Below are positions 45,469 to 52,836 of a DNA stretch of 64,000 bases, piece by piece (the first letter of the stretch is position 1; the number at the start of each line of letters is the position of its first letter). A program made the translations under genes and the position numbers. This stretch comes from Cardiobacteriaceae bacterium TAE3-ERU3 (lineage in GTDB: Bacteria > Pseudomonadota > Gammaproteobacteria > Cardiobacteriales > Cardiobacteriaceae). The stretch covers positions 124,001 through 188,000 of the forward strand of contig JAHUUI010000004.1 in NCBI GenBank assembly GCA_019218315.1, written 5' to 3'. The notes under the pieces are model-generated. The model was not told where the DNA came from and did not search any database. It saw only the letters and a program-made list of their open reading frames with translations.

Positions 45469-45939
45469 TTGTTTTGCCCGGTTTGCGGACATCAAGAAAC
45501 CAAAGTCATCGATAGTCGCCTGACCCCTGAAGGGGATAAAGTCAGGCGACGTCGTGAATGCTTGAGTGCAGAGTGCGCCAGCCGCTTCACGACTTATGAA
45601 GTCGCAGAAATTGCTTTGCCACTCGTCATCAAGCAAAGCGGTAACCGCGAGCAGTTTTCTCACGATAAACTGCGCGCGGGATTACTGCGTGCGGTGGAAA
45701 AACGTCCGGTCAGTATCGATACAGTGAATACACTTGTTGACCAAATAGAGCAAAAGCTACGCCATTACGGTGAGCGTGAAGTTCCTTCAAAATTGATCGG
45801 GCAATGGGTAATGGATGGCCTAAAAGACATCGACCACGTTGCCTATATTCGCTTCGCTTCGGTCTACCTCAGCTTTGCAGACGTCGAAGCTTTCCAAAAG
45901 CTGATCAGCGAGATTCGCCAAGCAGACGATATCTCATAA
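45469..45939 (+). CDS. nrdR: Transcriptional repressor NrdR
   Basis: A zinc-ATP-cone repressor of ribonucleotide reductase genes. The 156-residue protein has the zinc ribbon with Cys3, Cys6, Cys31 and Cys36 (CPVCGHQ and ECLSAEC), then the ATP cone beginning LPLVIKQSGNREQFSHDKLR. The start is TTG; no ATG or GTG gives the conserved N-terminus, and the glyA stop is only 16 bases upstream. The glyA-nrdR pair is common in this class; ribD, which often follows nrdR, lies elsewhere here (51745). Confidence 0.96.
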   Translation: MFCPVCGHQETKVIDSRLTPEGDKVRRRRECLSAECASRFTTYEVAEIALPLVIKQSGNREQFSHDKLRAGLLRAVEKRPVSIDTVNTLVDQIEQKLRHYGEREVPSKLIGQWVMDGLKDIDHVAYIRFASVYLSFADVEAFQKLISEIRQADDIS

Positions 45940-45999: not shown

Positions 46000-46989
46000 C
46001 TATTCTTTCGTAGTTTTGTGATCTTGATCATCACACACGGCAAGATAGTCCATCCAACGCCGTGAGCGTATTTCGCAGATTCCATCGTCTGTGCGCAGTA
46101 GAAATAATGCAGCAATATCATGCTTATCGGCAAATGCCGAACCAGCTTGCCCACCCTGCACAAATAACGCTGTCGCCAGTGCATCAGCACGCATACAGCT
46201 TTTATCCATGACGCTCACTGCCAATAGATCACTTTCCAGTGGCGTAGCCGTTTGCGGATTAAAGGTATGGATCGCTGTCTTACCGTCAATACGGTGATGC
46301 TTTCGGTAGCCGCCCGAGGTTGCAACTGCCATGTTATCAAGGGCTATATGCCCGTATATGAGCGTCTTGCCCGGCACTGGCAACTCAAGGCCAACTTGCC
46401 AAGCCATACCACCTGGACGCTGCCCCTGCGCATAGATTTCACCAGCCGCCTCAACGAGAAAATCACGCACACCCAGCGCTCGCACAGCTTGCGCAGCTCG
46501 ATCAACAGCAAAGCCTTTGGCTAGTGCAGATAAATTATAACTGCGATCATGATGCTTTTTAATTGCCGGTGGTTCTGTTTGCCAGCTGTAATCTCGGCCT
46601 TGCCCAGTAGATAGCCGCACCTGATCCGGCCTGCTTTGTGGTGCTGGCTCGGGGCCAAACCCCCATGCATTTATTGCCTGACCAAGCCCGACATCAAGTG
46701 CACCATGAGTATATTCGCGCATCTCCGCAGCTGCACGCATGACCTCAACCATATCCGCAGCCACTTCCACCCAAATATCTTTGGGTGCCCGATTTAGGCG
46801 CATCAAATTAGACTCCATTTTGTAGTGGGACATCTGCCGATCCACGCTACTCAATGCATCAAGTGCAGCACTAGCGACTTGTTCACTATCGATACCGGGC
46901 ACAGGCACATGGCGTAATTGCCACGGGCCACCCATGACGATACCGGCGGCGTGGTGGATTGCATGATCAGTATGTTGATGATCGGTCAT
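46000..46989 (-). CDS. apbE: FAD:protein FMN transferase (ApbE)
   Basis: ApbE attaches FMN from FAD covalently to Ser/Thr of target proteins. The 329-residue protein has GALDVGLGQAINAWGFGP, YNLSALAKGFAVDRAAQAV, FLVEAAGEIYAQG, MAVATSGGYRKHHRIDGK, HTFNPQTATP and CMRADALATALFV, all family segments. The N-terminus is His-rich (MTDHQHTDHAIHH) and shows no signal peptide or lipobox, whereas most ApbE proteins are exported. It is the fourth minus-strand gene after DUF2271, the PepSY reductase and the ankyrin protein, from which a hairpin separates it. Confidence 0.93.
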   Translation of the reverse strand: MTDHQHTDHAIHHAAGIVMGGPWQLRHVPVPGIDSEQVASAALDALSSVDRQMSHYKMESNLMRLNRAPKDIWVEVAADMVEVMRAAAEMREYTHGALDVGLGQAINAWGFGPEPAPQSRPDQVRLSTGQGRDYSWQTEPPAIKKHHDRSYNLSALAKGFAVDRAAQAVRALGVRDFLVEAAGEIYAQGQRPGGMAWQVGLELPVPGKTLIYGHIALDNMAVATSGGYRKHHRIDGKTAIHTFNPQTATPLESDLLAVSVMDKSCMRADALATALFVQGGQAGSAFADKHDIAALFLLRTDDGICEIRSRRWMDYLAVCDDQDHKTTKE

Positions 46990-47009
46990 ATATTTATTCC
47001 AAATTAAGC

Positions 47010-47036
47010 AAAATCGCCAGCCCCGAAAGGCTGGCG
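47010..47036 (-). terminator. Terminator-like hairpin between the ankyrin gene and apbE
   Basis: On the minus strand an 8-bp stem CGCCAGCC / GGCTGGCG (47015-47022 with 47029-47036) is followed by ATTTTGC. It lies 81 bases after the ankyrin stop and 21 bases before the apbE start, so apbE may be expressed by read-through or its own promoter. A second inverted repeat (CTCTGCAAAA / TTTTGCAGAG) is at 47050-47059 and 47094-47103. Confidence 0.6.
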
Positions 47037-47116
47037 AATGGCAAGAATACTCTGCAAAACAGCTCTACCGTCAAACAAAATCATGGCGCAATATTTTGCA
47101 GAGCATCACTATGGAT

Positions 47117-48478
47117 CTACTGTGCCAGTTTTTTGGCCACATCGCTGTCAGCCAACGCTTTGTTTTCCTTGATCATGTCTGCAGCTGTATCATCAAAGTC
47201 ATCAGCGAAGTCTGTATTTGCACCAGATTCGAGCAGGAACTCAACAGCTGCTGCATCGTCCCCTTTCAGAGCGAGATACATCAGGGCACTCATTTTATCA
47301 CGGTCAACCGCGTTGACATCTGCACCAGCTTCAACCAGCTTTTGCAACGAAGCAAGGCTATGGCCGTTACGTGCAGCAGCAACCAACGCATTTGTGCCTT
47401 TTTCATTGACAGCTGTAGCATCAGCGCCAGCGGCAATCAGCATATCAACAATTTCATCACTGCCTTTACGGCTACGGTTACCTGCTTCAATCAGCACTGT
47501 ATTGCCATCTTCATCAACAACACTAACGTCTGCACCATTGTCGAGCAGCAGCTTAACGACTTCCGGATCATTACGATGGATCGCATACATCAGTGGTGTT
47601 TTGCCTTTGTTGTCTGCACGGTTAACGTCCAGTCCCAGTTCGATAAATTTACCGACAACATCAGCAGAGTTGCGATAGGCTGCCTGTGACAGCGCATCAC
47701 GACCTTCATCTGTGGTGTCTTTTGGATCAAAGCCTTGATCAATCAAGTATTCAACCACAGCAAGCTTGTTGCGGATTGCTGCACGGGAAAGCGCATCTTC
47801 ACCTTTTTCGGTTTTACTGTCTTTACCGCCAACACGCTCAAGTACCCAATCTACCGCTTCCGGATTTTTGTTGCGGTAAGCAGCGAGCAAGAATGCATTT
47901 TCGCCATCATCATTCAATGCTTCAATATCAGATACTTCAGCGAGGTACTTGATGACGTCGAGATTCGGGTTCAAATAGGCGGCGCACAATGCAGCGTTAC
48001 GGCCACTGTCATCAACGTCATTCGGGTCAAAGCCCTGATCGATGAGATACTTCAGCACTTCTGGATCTTTTTGGCTAAAGGCTGCGTAGCCAAGTACACT
48101 TCGGTCTGAAGCATCACGCACGCTAGTATCAGCACCAAGTTCAATGAGGTGCTGTACTACAGGTAAATCCGATCCCGAAGCCGCCCAGAAAATGGCGGGG
48201 CGACCATCGTGGCCAATACGGTTAATATCCGCACCCTGCTCGATCAGATAGTCTACAACTTCAACGCTTGCGCCATTGCGCAATGCGTTCATCAGTGGTG
48301 TGTAGAGTTTCTTGTCCATGTCGGTAACGTTATTACCTTCTGCGACAGTTTGTTGGACTTTTGCCAAATCGGCATCTTTCCAGTAGTCCCCATCTAGCAT
48401 AGGGTTATCAGCCAGTGCAGTGTTAAATACGCTCAGTCCGATAGACAGAGCCAGTAAAGAAAGTTTGAATGTACGCAT
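47117..48478 (-). CDS. Secreted ankyrin-repeat protein
   Basis: A 453-residue protein. A Sec signal peptide (residues 1-23, ending TALA) is followed by about a dozen ankyrin repeats built on the pattern DxxGxxALxxAAxxxxxxVVxxLIxxGAD, and then a short C-terminal helix. Ankyrin repeats make protein-protein contacts. Periplasmic ankyrin proteins such as AnkB of Pseudomonas are linked to oxidative-stress enzymes, but the partner here is unknown. An AGGAG six bases upstream fixes the ATG at 48478. Its place between the PepSY reductase (44 bases upstream) and apbE suggests a scaffold role in that system. Confidence 0.9.
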   Translation of the reverse strand: MRTFKLSLLALSIGLSVFNTALADNPMLDGDYWKDADLAKVQQTVAEGNNVTDMDKKLYTPLMNALRNGASVEVVDYLIEQGADINRIGHDGRPAIFWAASGSDLPVVQHLIELGADTSVRDASDRSVLGYAAFSQKDPEVLKYLIDQGFDPNDVDDSGRNAALCAAYLNPNLDVIKYLAEVSDIEALNDDGENAFLLAAYRNKNPEAVDWVLERVGGKDSKTEKGEDALSRAAIRNKLAVVEYLIDQGFDPKDTTDEGRDALSQAAYRNSADVVGKFIELGLDVNRADNKGKTPLMYAIHRNDPEVVKLLLDNGADVSVVDEDGNTVLIEAGNRSRKGSDEIVDMLIAAGADATAVNEKGTNALVAAARNGHSLASLQKLVEAGADVNAVDRDKMSALMYLALKGDDAAAVEFLLESGANTDFADDFDDTAADMIKENKALADSDVAKKLAQ

Positions 48479-48522
48479 AATATTCTCCTGTTGAGTTTGG
48501 CGTAGTGTTTTCGATAAATACA

Positions 48523-50703
48523 TTAATAAACGTCTTCCAGATAGCGATTGCGGCGCTTGAGTTCACTCACGGATGTACCGAGTTCGCTCGCAAGCTGTTC
48601 GATTTCGCTGCGCACGGCGGATGCCATTGCCTGCCCTCCACAAACCATGACAGTCGCACCGCTACGCAAGCGCTCAAGCAGATGATCGTGGTCCGCACGG
48701 ATTTTGTCCTGAACATAATGGCGTTCGCCGATCCTCGACCACGCCACAACGCAGTGATGCAAGCGCTTGCTTTCCAGCCATTGACCAATTTCCTTGCCGT
48801 ATAGCGCATCCGCATCGGGGTGTCGCCCTCCCCAATACAAATCAAATGGGCGAGCTGCGTTATTCAGGCGAATCATGCCGGTAAATGGTGCAATGCCCGT
48901 ACCTGCACCGATCATCACTACCGGCCTGCGCGATGGCATGCGGAAACGATCGTTACGCTCTACCGTTACCTCAATCGTCGCCCCATCAGATAACTGACAT
49001 AGCCACGGTGAACACAACCCACCTTCTTGCAAGCGCACACAAATTTCCAGATAGCCATCATGCTTCGCATCCGAGCCGATAGAGTACAGGCGCGGCACGC
49101 TACATTCTGGCGGATAAATAGCGACCAGATCTCCAGGGCGGAATTTAGGCAGCTTGTCCGCACTAAAGCGCAAGACGGCAATCTTCGTACCGATGCTTTC
49201 ACCATACACTTCCCGTGATGTGAGGGTCAGGGTACGCGTTTTTGGCCGCTTCGGCTCGTAATGCACATCTAGTGGTAAATCAAGCGCTTTGCCCAGATCA
49301 TCACACCAATGCTCAAAAGTCTGCGCCGACTGTTTATCTACTTTGGTCAATGGCAACAACGGTGCGGCAAATTTCTTTGCCATTGCTGCTTCAACCACTT
49401 GCCCAAATGCGCAATACTCAGGAAAAGCCTTGTCACCAAAAGCCAGTACAGCATAGTGCAAACCTTCACTGTGCATTTTTTCCAAGCGAGACAGAAAGCG
49501 CCCTGCTGACTTTGGTGCATCACCATTGCCATAAGTTGCCGTCAGTGCCAAAACCCGCTTGAGCTCAGGATAGGCCACACCAAGTGCGTTCATCTCGATA
49601 ATACGCACCCGTTCACCGGCTGCGTGCAGACCACGGTGCAATGCCTTGGCAAAGCCCCATGTACTGCCACCTTCTGAACCAACCACGATCAGCGTTGTTG
49701 CCGTCGTAGCCGAGGCGTTATTCTTGATCCGGCCTTTGCCCTTGCGTTTATTGCGCCACCAAACGATCGCTCCGGTCACGGCAAAAAACGGTACGCTCAG
49801 CGATGAGAAGAACAGCACCACCGCCCAGCCGACCGAGCCTTCTGCAGTATGGAAAAACATCACCCAATCCATGACTTTCGCTAAAACGGGTAATGATTCG
49901 CGTGAGAGTACATCTCCGGTGAATTGATCTATGAAGACATATTCACTTGCTGTACGCACCGTCCATACATCAAACCAGTCATCAGGGATCGGATAAACGA
50001 CTTCCCTGACATCAGTGATCGGTATTTCCTGTAAACCGTGCAACGTCCATGGATCAACGTAGTCAAGCTCTTCAAGACTTTCCGGATACGCTGGCGGCTT
50101 ATCCTCCCCGGAGGAGACCAGATTAAACGTCACAGCTGATAGCCAAAGTGCCGTCAATGCAGTCAAGACTAGTGGCAACAGCGCCCAGCGGCCAAAGGAT
50201 GCATGCTGGTTAGCCGCACCACGCAAGGAAATGCTGTCAAAAAACTGCCTCCAGCCACCCAGACGACGCAGCAACAAAAATATGCCGGACAAGCACAGCA
50301 CCGTCATCACGATCCCGCCAGCTGCAGGTAGCAAACGGCCATTTTCACCGAGCAAAAACGAACGATGCAGATCACGCACAAACACGTATAGCTCAGGCTC
50401 TTTTTGTCCGCGTACGAACTTGCCGCTATCGAGCGCCAGTGTATCTTCACGCAAGCGACTGTTGCGCGAATAGCTCAGCTTTGCTTCACCAGATGGCAAT
50501 ATTTTCAGGCGTTGCGGTTCAATGCGTTTGTTGGCAGTCGCGATGCGTTCGATCACATCCGCTACCGAAACATCACTGCCCGCACTATCTGTCGTATATG
50601 CCTGATAAAGCGGCTGGGTAGAGAGTATTGTGCCGGTCAAAGCCAGTGTCATCACCAACAATGCCCCGAGCAATCCAATCCATGAGTGGATACTGCGCCA
50701 CAT
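48523..50703 (-). CDS. PepSY membrane flavodoxin/ferredoxin-reductase fusion
   Basis: A 726-residue fusion. Residues 1-320 form a PepSY-type membrane part with helices near 5-27, 128-147, 173-193 and 295-315 and several His in or next to them (HSW, RDLHRSF, FFHTAEGS) that could bind haem. Residues about 337-480 are a flavodoxin-like FMN domain (VVGSEGGSTWGFA, ATYGNGDAP, AFGDKAFPEYC). Residues about 500-720 are an FAD/NADP reductase part (RLYSIGSD, MIGAGTGIAPFTGMI, VMVCGGQAMA). It resembles sulfite reductase flavoprotein-like PepSY proteins and would move electrons from cytosolic NAD(P)H across the membrane. It starts 36 bases after DUF2271. Confidence 0.9.
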   Translation of the reverse strand: MWRSIHSWIGLLGALLVMTLALTGTILSTQPLYQAYTTDSAGSDVSVADVIERIATANKRIEPQRLKILPSGEAKLSYSRNSRLREDTLALDSGKFVRGQKEPELYVFVRDLHRSFLLGENGRLLPAAGGIVMTVLCLSGIFLLLRRLGGWRQFFDSISLRGAANQHASFGRWALLPLVLTALTALWLSAVTFNLVSSGEDKPPAYPESLEELDYVDPWTLHGLQEIPITDVREVVYPIPDDWFDVWTVRTASEYVFIDQFTGDVLSRESLPVLAKVMDWVMFFHTAEGSVGWAVVLFFSSLSVPFFAVTGAIVWWRNKRKGKGRIKNNASATTATTLIVVGSEGGSTWGFAKALHRGLHAAGERVRIIEMNALGVAYPELKRVLALTATYGNGDAPKSAGRFLSRLEKMHSEGLHYAVLAFGDKAFPEYCAFGQVVEAAMAKKFAAPLLPLTKVDKQSAQTFEHWCDDLGKALDLPLDVHYEPKRPKTRTLTLTSREVYGESIGTKIAVLRFSADKLPKFRPGDLVAIYPPECSVPRLYSIGSDAKHDGYLEICVRLQEGGLCSPWLCQLSDGATIEVTVERNDRFRMPSRRPVVMIGAGTGIAPFTGMIRLNNAARPFDLYWGGRHPDADALYGKEIGQWLESKRLHHCVVAWSRIGERHYVQDKIRADHDHLLERLRSGATVMVCGGQAMASAVRSEIEQLASELGTSVSELKRRNRYLEDVY

Positions 50704-50739
50704 AAGCTACAATCCGTCAGTTACGCTTGCATCATGGAA

Positions 50740-51258
50740 TCAGTCTTCCCACTTGTAGCGGAAATAGCGAATGTAGCCGGTACCGGGAATTTTGTCCTTC
50801 ATGTGTTCAGAATCCAGCTCGACTTCCACATCCTCTGGGTAGTTGTTTTGATTCTCGACCGAAGTTTCGACTCGGATTTTATAGCCTGCATCGAGAATAT
50901 CATCATCGAGATCAATACGGATCACATCACGGTCACCAGGAGCGACGGAAGCGCCAGTAATCGCATCAAGGTCCTGCGGTGCACGACCAAGGTACTTCCA
51001 CCAACGTGGCATATCTTTAAAGAATTGTGGCTTAGATCCAGCAACCCACAAAGTGCGCACATAGCGACCTTCCGGATCGACCAAATACATCGCATAAAAT
51101 GCTTCGTAGCCTTCATAATCATTGAGCTGAACCAGCAATGTACCTTCAGCAGCCTGACTGACGCCTGGCATTGCCGCAGCAGCAAACATACTCGCAGCAA
51201 TCGCTTTTTTCAGCGCACTGCGCAACGGGTTTGACAAAAATTGTCGTGATGTTGACAT
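50740..51258 (-). CDS. Secreted DUF2271 protein with flavinylation-like motif
   Basis: A 172-residue predicted periplasmic protein. The signal sequence is unusual: a long basic region with TSRQFL (resembling a twin-arginine motif with only one Arg), then a hydrophobic stretch ending VSQA. The mature part has MPRWWKYLGRAPQDLDAITGAS (shown in parts here as PRWWKYLGR and DAITGAS, residues 98-104) and VETSVENQNNYPED, matching DUF2271. DAITGAS has the form of the ApbE acceptor motif D-x-x-[ST]-G-A-[ST]. The ATG at 51258 is fixed by GGAGG. It is the first gene of the operon with the PepSY reductase. Confidence 0.85.
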   Translation of the reverse strand: MSTSRQFLSNPLRSALKKAIAASMFAAAAMPGVSQAAEGTLLVQLNDYEGYEAFYAMYLVDPEGRYVRTLWVAGSKPQFFKDMPRWWKYLGRAPQDLDAITGASVAPGDRDVIRIDLDDDILDAGYKIRVETSVENQNNYPEDVEVELDSEHMKDKIPGTGYIRYFRYKWED

Positions 51259-51744: not shown

Positions 51745-52836
51745 ATGCATCTAACCTACATGCAGCGCACACTCGAACTCGCCAAGCGCGGCCAATTTTC
51801 CGCAGCCCCCAATCCGGCCGTTGGCTGCGTCATCGTGCGCAACGGGCAAATTGTCGGCGAAGGATTTCATGAGCGCACTGGTGAGCCACATGCTGAAGTC
51901 CACGCCCTGCGCCAAGCCGGCGTACAAGCACGCGGCGCAACCGCTTATGTCACTCTAGAGCCCTGCGCCCATTACGGCCGCACCCCGCCATGTGCGCAAG
52001 CACTGATTGACGCTGGCATCGCCCATGTCGTCATCGCCACCCAAGACCCAAATCCATTGGTTGCGGGCAAAGGCATCGCCTTACTCGAAGCAGCAGGGAT
52101 TACCACCCAATGCGGTATCCTCGAAAAAGAAGCTCACGATCTTAATCGTGCTTTTTTCTACCGCATCACCCACCAGCGCCCCTACGTCCGCTTGAAAATG
52201 GCTGCAACTATGGATGGAAAAACCGCCTTACCAAGTGGTGAAAGCCAGTGGATTACCGGAGAAGCCGCCCGCCACGATGCACATTACTGGCGCTTGCGTA
52301 GTGACGCGATTATTGCCGGCTGTGGTAGCATCATCGACGACAACGCACGCCTCAGCGCACGCTATCCGACCAAGCTCACTGCCAATCCACCACTCAAAGT
52401 CATCATCGACAGCCAACTACGCACGCCCTCTACTGCTGCGGCACTTAGCGATGGACTGCCTACCCTCATTGCCACTACAACTACCGCGCCGGAGCGACAT
52501 TATCCTGCGCACGTTGAACTGCTGCGCCTGCCAGCCAGCGATGCTGGAAAAGTCCCACTTACGACCCTACTCGACGAACTCGGCGCACGACAAATAAACA
52601 GCGTATGGGTTGAGGCTGGCGCTGGGCTTGCCGGTGCGTTCTACACGGCTGCGCTGTATCAGGAAATCATCCTTTATCTTGCACCTTTTTTTCTCGGCGA
52701 TGGTGCCCGCGGATTGCTCAACGCTGCCCCACCGGCCGTCTTATCTGATAAAATAGCCCACCGAATATCAGACAGCCGTGCTTTGGGTGACGACTGGCGC
52801 TTCATCCTAACTCGCGCCGACCAATCCGACTGCTGA
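51745..52836 (+). CDS. ribD: Bifunctional pyrimidine deaminase/reductase RibD
   Basis: Performs two steps of riboflavin synthesis. The N-terminal deaminase domain has NPAVGCVIV, the zinc motif HAEVHAL and the TLEPCAHYGRTPPC site. The reductase domain begins RPYVRLKMAATMDGKTALP and contains SQWITGEAARHDAHYWR and VWVEAGAGLAGAF. The 363-residue length matches E. coli (367). The ATG at 51745 fits the family N-terminus, but no Shine-Dalgarno is visible. First gene of the rib operon. Confidence 0.97.
   Translation: MHLTYMQRTLELAKRGQFSAAPNPAVGCVIVRNGQIVGEGFHERTGEPHAEVHALRQAGVQARGATAYVTLEPCAHYGRTPPCAQALIDAGIAHVVIATQDPNPLVAGKGIALLEAAGITTQCGILEKEAHDLNRAFFYRITHQRPYVRLKMAATMDGKTALPSGESQWITGEAARHDAHYWRLRSDAIIAGCGSIIDDNARLSARYPTKLTANPPLKVIIDSQLRTPSTAAALSDGLPTLIATTTTAPERHYPAHVELLRLPASDAGKVPLTTLLDELGARQINSVWVEAGAGLAGAFYTAALYQEIILYLAPFFLGDGARGLLNAAPPAVLSDKIAHRISDSRALGDDWRFILTRADQSDC

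Follow-up and report, generated by a model that had tools for sequence, protein, structure and literature searches.

The window analyzed here, a 64,000-nucleotide stretch of the genome of Cardiobacteriaceae bacterium TAE3-ERU3, contains a four-gene cassette that, taken as a whole, we are modestly inclined to interpret as a transmembrane electron exporter driven by reduced nicotinamide adenine dinucleotide phosphate (NADPH), with a secreted DUF2271 carrier of flavin mononucleotide (FMN), an ankyrin-repeat component and a periplasmic acceptor. The genes lie on the minus strand at positions 46000–51258, between nrdR and ribD, and encode, in the order of transcription, a secreted DUF2271 protein, a fusion of a PepSY_TM membrane domain with a flavodoxin and a flavin reductase, a secreted ankyrin-repeat protein and a member of the ApbE family (Table 1). 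Open reading frames and Pfam searches agree with the families and gene order that had been proposed from the nucleotide sequence alone, without database searches (hereinafter, the sequence-only reading).

A single protein of the cassette combines PepSY_TM (E = 9e-33), Flavodoxin_1 (2e-16), NAD_binding_1 (6e-13) and FAD_binding_6 (3e-4). A profile built from 41 relatives matches the reductases of nitric oxide synthase (NOS), the sulfite reductase flavoprotein and cytochrome P450 reductase in the PDB. Residues 329–726 of the predicted model (mean predicted local distance difference test score, pLDDT, of 89) align with P450 reductase and NOS reductase with VIA Z scores of 29–30.5; this alignment, made with the whole-protein model, covers about 390 of 600 residues, and FAD_binding_1 has no Pfam match. 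The reductase half thus has the same fold as diflavin reductases (P450 reductase, NOS reductase, CysJ), in which an FMN domain is followed by a domain for flavin adenine dinucleotide (FAD) and NADPH, whereas the window fusion differs from all of these in having a membrane cytochrome in front, and from P450 reductase in that the long connecting insert seems to be missing. Given that Ser656 is invariant and Arg657 nearly invariant among the 41 relatives, at what we take to be the NADPH 2'-phosphate site, the conservation suggests that the electron donor is NADPH.

For the membrane half, the only profile match in the PDB at E values up to 0.1 is FoxB (7abw, E = 3e-9); FoxB is missing from the VIA list for the whole reductase, which is filled by matches to the reductase half. 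Four histidines, H6, H113, H167 and H285, are conserved without exception in the 41 relatives and are candidate heme ligands; H6, H113 and H285 align with histidines of FoxB, and H167 falls outside the aligned pieces. The model places H6 and H167 close to where membrane helices begin, and puts H113 and H285 into short helices that immediately precede two other membrane helices. With both termini placed in the cytosol, this arrangement would yield an inner and an outer histidine pair, as two heme sites need. PepSY_TM domains with conserved histidines are also characteristic of the ferric-siderophore reductases FoxB, FpvG and PiuB (PMC10866019). Unlike these, the window protein carries an NADPH diflavin module of its own and has DUF2271 as a partner, and the cassette, flanked by nrdR and ribD, has no siderophore receptor beside it.

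The DUF2271 protein starts with a hydrophobic stretch (peak 12-residue mean hydropathy of 1.9; this measure, taken over the N-terminus, is used for leader prediction throughout). DUF2271 proteins are flavinylated by ApbE at the motif [S/T]GA[S/T] (PMC8238504), which in the window protein takes the form DAITGAS, so that Thr101 (codon 50956–50958) is the predicted flavinylated residue. In an alignment of 30 DUF2271 proteins, the window's included, the motif reads TGAS in 22, SGAS in seven and TGGS in one. An SGAT tetrapeptide in the reductase (LRSGATVMV) was considered as a second flavin site and rejected, as it is not kept in the aligned or listed relatives. The predicted DUF2271 model is a beta sandwich for which Foldseek reports no match at an E value of 0.001 or below; VIA detects a C2-like beta sandwich with a middling score (Z = 8.2, 95 aligned residues, 2.6 Å), a resemblance that may reflect only a common arrangement.

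From these features, we infer a route in which electrons from cytosolic NADPH would enter the reductase tail at FAD, move on to its FMN and cross the membrane via two b hemes, one held by H6/H167 on the inner side and the other by H113/H285 on the outer side, to reach the FMN that secreted DUF2271 would carry on Thr101. FMN-DUF2271 would then pass them on in the periplasm, with ferric iron or a ferric siderophore as the most likely acceptor. The sequence-only reading had outlined this succession of NAD(P)H, FAD, FMN, heme and a flavinylated protein, and the diflavin module, the FoxB match, the four histidines and the DAITGAS motif all support it. It had also pointed to known associations of ApbE, PepSY and DUF2271 in surveys of flavinylation genes; indeed, the core of the cassette is of the kind described in a 2021 survey (PMC8238504), with a PepSY_TM carrier, a DUF2271 protein with the [S/T]GA[S/T] motif and ApbE in the cluster. 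About one third of the PepSY clusters surveyed there have an NAD-binding domain. Compared with the systems described in that source, the window adds a secreted ankyrin protein and an ApbE without an export signal, and these two features go beyond the described kind; the survey required a signal in at least one key gene of a cluster, and an exported ApbE is usual in its clusters and not strictly defining. Furthermore, in contrast to such systems, there is no DUF4198 gene between nrdR and ribD. A more distant DUF2271 gene next to one for a secreted DUF4198-like protein (identified by eye), the common form of the system, is present in three other genomes of the family (G009, G004 and G011; loci L009, L010 and L011).

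A scan of genome contigs with the reductase alignment produced 245 pattern matches, 194 of which were confirmed (the single-protein query of the same contigs gave 22 stretches, none confirmed), and the best 80 of the 194 were analyzed, a set biased to lookalikes of the window protein and rich in Pseudomonas. A neighborhood search of this kind had been suggested in the sequence-only reading; in it, DUF2271 adjoins the reductase in 80 of the 80 loci, ApbE follows it in 50, and an ankyrin gene is present in two, to which the window and a Spirosoma plasmid are additional. Neighbor families were derived by open-frame clustering, with Pfam run on one representative each of the kinase, PepSY_2, VIT1 and ferric-reductase clusters. 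The other neighbors include a small PepSY_2 gene (64 loci), a sensor kinase (59), a response regulator (59), VIT1 (20) and a ferric-reductase-like protein (16), none of which is found in either of the two ankyrin loci. The reductase is also encoded on 96 plasmid records at an E value of 1e-60, 70 of them predicted to be conjugative. One predicted conjugative plasmid, from Klebsiella oxytoca (L201, NZ_CP115680.1), carries an ankyrin-less version together with a two-component system, a ferric-reductase-like protein, a PepSY gene and a VIT1/CCC1 transporter.

The ankyrin gene of the window has an AGGAG site ahead of its start at 48478, a longer start at 48523 being possible, and the N-terminal hydrophobic stretch of the protein reaches a peak of 2.2. 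The two surveyed loci with such a gene belong to Rappaport israeli, from the same family (Cardiobacteriaceae) as the window genome, and to a Rhodobacterales contig (the isolate name of the assembly, DOLJORAL78, suggests dolphin mouth); both have the four-gene set of the window in unchanged order, at unrelated insertion sites. Identity to the window proteins is 66% for DUF2271, 64 and 53% for the two pieces of the reductase, which is split by a frameshift, 57% for the ankyrin protein and 50% for ApbE in Rappaport, and 59, 56, 50 and 49%, respectively, in Rhodobacterales. In the Rappaport assembly (L008/L067), the reductase and, by eye, sucA and lpd each fall into overlapping frames, which probably reflects errors of assembly. 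Mis-binning of the Rhodobacterales contig was rejected: an antiporter gene that flanks the cassette shares 81% identity with its counterpart on a Pseudosulfitobacter plasmid, and the guanine plus cytosine content of the locus is 63%. Because this contig looks truly alphaproteobacterial, the whole cassette was most likely transferred between classes in one piece. A phage-type integrase is encoded on the same contig (L065, 2275–3486), about 3 kb from the cassette.

Additionally, a plasmid of Spirosoma oryzicola (Bacteroidota) encodes an ankyrin protein, DUF2271 and the reductase consecutively, with a TonB receptor gene upstream on the opposite strand and, further along on the other strand, ApbE followed by a glutathione peroxidase gene. 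The gene order differs from that of the window, and the ankyrin homolog aligns over nearly its whole length. Two stretches outside the repeats, N-terminal N-x-[LM]-L-[DK]-x-x-[FY]-W and C-terminal F-x-[DE]-x-A-x-D-x-x-x-[DE]-N-x-x-L, are common to all four ankyrin proteins. The plasmid search with the ankyrin query retrieved two records at an E value of 1e-20; the second, from Thermus, was set aside as generic repeats, since it aligns via the repeats only and has no flavin gene nearby. Genome searches found the window protein as the sole match among 369 genomes at 1e-60 and among 350 genomes at 1e-45. With a profile, the window protein was the only full-length match among 398 genomes of the phylum at 1e-30, the 15 other matches spanning at most 352 of the 451 positions and never the first 50; these genome sets overlap partly, and Bacteroidota are represented by plasmids only. 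Since the 398-genome search recovered the window alone at full length, the ankyrin branch is rare in the phylum of the window. A carbonic anhydrase gene lies a few kilobases from the ankyrin cassette in Rappaport (L008, 16762–17394, by eye) and in Spirosoma (L203, 13951–14598, annotated), perhaps by chance.

In a reductase tree built by a quick method, the four ankyrin-associated reductases group together with a Shimodaira-Hasegawa-like approximate likelihood ratio (SH-aLRT) support of 93, and in the DUF2271 tree the four associated proteins group with support of 90/63. The systems with an ankyrin protein thus seem to form a branch of their own; weighing against such an interpretation, the Spirosoma sequences are long-branched and neither grouping is starred.

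In the sequence-only reading, the cassette ApbE was grouped with a flavinylated periplasmic acceptor; a role of this ApbE in the periplasm was not borne out. Its conserved core begins about 17 residues past the start codon, with no hydrophobic stretch: the peak hydropathy is 1.1, compared with 2.8–3.0 in three NQR-linked lipoprotein ApbEs from the family, one of them encoded in the window genome. The HTxxP and ADALAT stretches, presumably catalytic, are preserved, and the protein is 49–50% identical to the two other cassette ApbEs, as opposed to 29–32% to the two paralogs in the window genome. As the export signal is absent in ApbE, whereas DUF2271 is secreted, the cassette ApbE need not be the periplasmic enzyme. 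The same holds for the ApbEs behind related reductases, all 46 measured of the 50 being leaderless and none above 1.5; for one of them (L108), extending the upstream stretch raises the value from 1.05 to 1.66, still below the controls. The remaining four, excluded for want of the ApbE core pattern, include three whose printed starts look leaderless. The retention of a leaderless ApbE beside an exported substrate in most operons examined is a puzzle, for which flavinylation of the DUF2271 precursor in the cytosol, before export, and flavinylation by an exported ApbE encoded elsewhere would be solutions of about equal probability.

Several observations weigh against precursor flavinylation. No neighboring ApbE is found in 30 of the 80 loci, three of them at contig ends, and the window genome itself encodes an NQR-linked lipoprotein ApbE. 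Among 14 named genomes from the 80 loci (eight without and six with a neighboring ApbE), 13 encode an exported ApbE, either a lipoprotein or signal-bearing. Each of the eight genomes without a neighboring ApbE encodes a lipoprotein-type ApbE at another site (leaving aside one weak match in Halomonas sp. Y3); in Halomonas sp. 25-S5 and Colwellia ponticola, a leaderless copy away from the locus is present as well. Among those with a neighboring ApbE, three Pseudomonas also possess a lipoprotein ApbE, and Pollutimonas and an Alcaligenaceae strain possess a second ApbE with a twin-arginine-looking signal (by eye), with a peak of only 1.8 in the latter. These counts include six copies read individually: five (from Halomonas sp. 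25-S5, Halomonas sp. Y3, Marinicella, Pollutimonas and the Alcaligenaceae strain) begin with an export-type leader, and one, from Colwellia, lacks it. The Spirosoma ApbE, only 25% identical to the window ApbE, has an export signal as well. Thus, with exported ApbEs in these 13 genomes and in that of the window, periplasmic flavinylation would be possible almost everywhere. Cytosolic ApbEs are described as acting on cytosolic targets, e.g., a cytosolic fumarate reductase, and an ApbE expressed in the cytosol failed to support an apbE knockout strain (PMC12052999).

The lipoprotein ApbEs of the window genome and of the eight genomes without a neighboring ApbE, the two leaderless copies away from the locus and the published cytosolic ApbE favor the alternative, to which we assign somewhat less than an even chance, that the leaderless ApbE leaves DUF2271 unmodified and has another cytosolic target or only handles FAD, the carrier being served by an exported ApbE. 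What argues against it is the position of ApbE right behind the reductase in 50 of the 80 loci, with all those measured leaderless, and the lack of an obvious other substrate: of the two FMN_bind matches in the window genome, one is located beside the NQR-linked ApbE and the other in a 196-residue frame, and neither is of fumarate-reductase size. In Bosea psychrotolerans, moreover, the neighboring leaderless ApbE is the sole ApbE match in the genome, so that flavinylation before export appears to be the only visible answer there. The third ApbE of the window genome (G000:C6:101388-107054; L176, 1389–7055) is also leaderless and is encoded directly after a protein of 1544 residues that begins with a signal-like sequence, contains long TGGS and TGD repeats and, by eye, ends like an autotransporter, possibly an unusual flavinylation target or a chance neighbor.

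With regard to the terminal acceptor, iron reduction appears to be the likeliest use of the system, on account of the VIT1 and ferric-reductase-like neighbors, the TonB receptor gene beside the Spirosoma set and the published links of PepSY/DUF2271 clusters to iron (PMC8238504, PMC7190382, PMC12004947, PMC10866019). The cassette itself speaks against iron: the best Fur-like box in the window matches 12 of 19 positions, equaled in 66% of 200 shuffles, those of the Rhodobacterales (L065) and Rappaport (L067) loci match 11 and 12 of 19 (equaled in 34% and 68% of shuffles, respectively), and no iron gene was recognized by eye beside the window cassette. An acceptor other than iron, such as copper or an oxidant, with the system serving in stress defense, is accordingly conceivable and, in our estimate, rather unlikely. 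The two-component system in 59 of the 80 loci, a heavy-metal P-type ATPase in one Paracoccus plasmid locus, a copper-type P-type ATPase (by eye) flanking the Rappaport cassette, the glutathione peroxidase near the Spirosoma set and the lack of a window Fur box above chance all fit such a function, against which the iron-related neighbors and the published iron links (PMC8238504, PMC7190382, PMC12004947) argue.

The secreted ankyrin protein would have a periplasmic role specific to one branch of these exporters: most probably, it would serve as a scaffold keeping FMN-DUF2271 against the PepSY domains or the acceptor or, failing that, as an assembly factor for the heme or flavin centers. One property does not favor the scaffold: the ankyrin and DUF2271 proteins are all acidic, with isoelectric points (pI) of 4.2–4.8 (4.4 for the mature window ankyrin protein), which mildly disfavors plain charge docking between the two. 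Ankyrin proteins that support heme enzymes have been published, namely AnkB with KatB in Pseudomonas aeruginosa and Cj1386 with KatA in Campylobacter, and AnkB is called periplasmic in the title of its paper (cited in PMC10294975 and PMC11442138). As far as these descriptions go, the cassette would likewise couple an ankyrin protein to a redox heme protein, the difference being that the partner would be an electron exporter, not a catalase. By analogy, the ankyrin protein could be a heme-handling or oxidative-stress partner that loads or protects the b hemes of the reductase and does not dock DUF2271. The four invariant histidines suited to two hemes and the glutathione peroxidase gene of Spirosoma are in line with this possibility, which we nevertheless regard as improbable: no catalase was recognized among the neighbors (by eye in the window, Rappaport and Rhodobacterales, by annotation in Spirosoma), and in the mature ankyrin proteins, potential ligands amount to four or five histidines and no more than one cysteine. 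Still less probable is that the gene is a passenger in an ordinary PepSY/DUF2271 ferric reductase cassette, as the 78 of 80 related loci without it might suggest, because the gene holds the same place in three unlinked contexts (the window, Rappaport and the Rhodobacterales contig), where it has diverged about as much as its three partner genes, and recurs in another phylum, in Spirosoma, in a different order, with the same end stretches.

The sequence-only reading had called the ankyrin partner unusual, and its presence in two of 80 loci agrees with that. The word "ankyrin" is absent from the main texts of PMC8238504 and PMC11334425, and a literature search combining ankyrin, PepSY and siderophore yielded no paper, most subscription journals being outside the search. 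Neither the ankyrin partner nor the pairing of a leaderless ApbE with an exported DUF2271 was found in the literature searched, which includes the main text of the 2021 survey. A stronger, combined proposal, in which the ankyrin protein is obligate in one branch spanning Pseudomonadota and Bacteroidota and docks FMN-DUF2271 to the cytochrome, and the Pseudomonadota carrier is flavinylated in the cytosol by the leaderless ApbE and exported FMN-loaded, appears doubtful in its entirety.

Table 1. Genes of the electron-transfer cassette and flanking genes in the window
Feature	Position	Strand	Description
DUF2271 protein	50740..51258	-	172 aa, secreted; GGAGGA ahead of ATG at 51258; Pfam DUF2271 E 9e-34
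PepSY_TM / flavodoxin / FAD-NADPH reductase fusion	48523..50703	-	726 aa; Pfam PepSY_TM, Flavodoxin_1, NAD_binding_1 and FAD_binding_6
Ankyrin-repeat protein	47117..48478	-	453 aa, secreted; Pfam Ank_2 E 1e-75
Spacer between ankyrin gene and apbE	46990..47116	-	127 bases; long inverted repeat and terminator-like hairpin with T-rich tail
ApbE family FAD:protein FMN transferase	46000..46989	-	329 aa; Pfam ApbE E 4e-62
nrdR	45469..45939	+	Left neighbor of the cassette
ribD	51745..52836	+	Right neighbor of the cassette

Because a terminator-like hairpin (47037–47014) is located between the ankyrin gene and apbE, the latter may be transcribed partly apart, in which case the four genes would not form one uninterrupted transcript. 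The fold of this spacer is unusually stable (z = -4.5, with 0 of 200 shuffles equally stable); the region as a whole shows no excess of terminator-like sites, with five found compared with 6.8 in shuffles. Ahead of apbE, the spacer also contains a long imperfect inverted repeat (GATGCTCTGCAAAA ... TTTTGCAGAGTATTC).

The proximity to riboflavin genes was considered as a functional sign and dropped. A ribD match at 1e-30 is present in six of the seven family genomes searched, and in four of these six (G001, G003, G004 and G005) nrdR lies directly upstream of ribD with no cassette in between, so that the location of the cassette is an insertion site, perhaps by chance. In G001, a genome of the same genus, neither DUF2271 (at an E value of 0.001) nor the reductase (at 1e-25) has a match. 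The one family genome without a RibD match at this threshold, G006, might reflect riboflavin dependence or a draft gap. An Rfam search of the window at gathering thresholds gave no match, and hence no FMN riboswitch at that level. Window neighbors other than nrdR and ribD were identified by eye.

Taken together, these observations make the ankyrin protein a new candidate component of a widespread, poorly characterized electron export system. Most of the operons examined pair an exported flavin acceptor with a leaderless ApbE, a combination that puts both the compartment and the enzyme of flavin attachment in question. If precursor flavinylation is true, export of the FMN-loaded carrier would be a route not found in the literature searched, as far as the sources covered extend.

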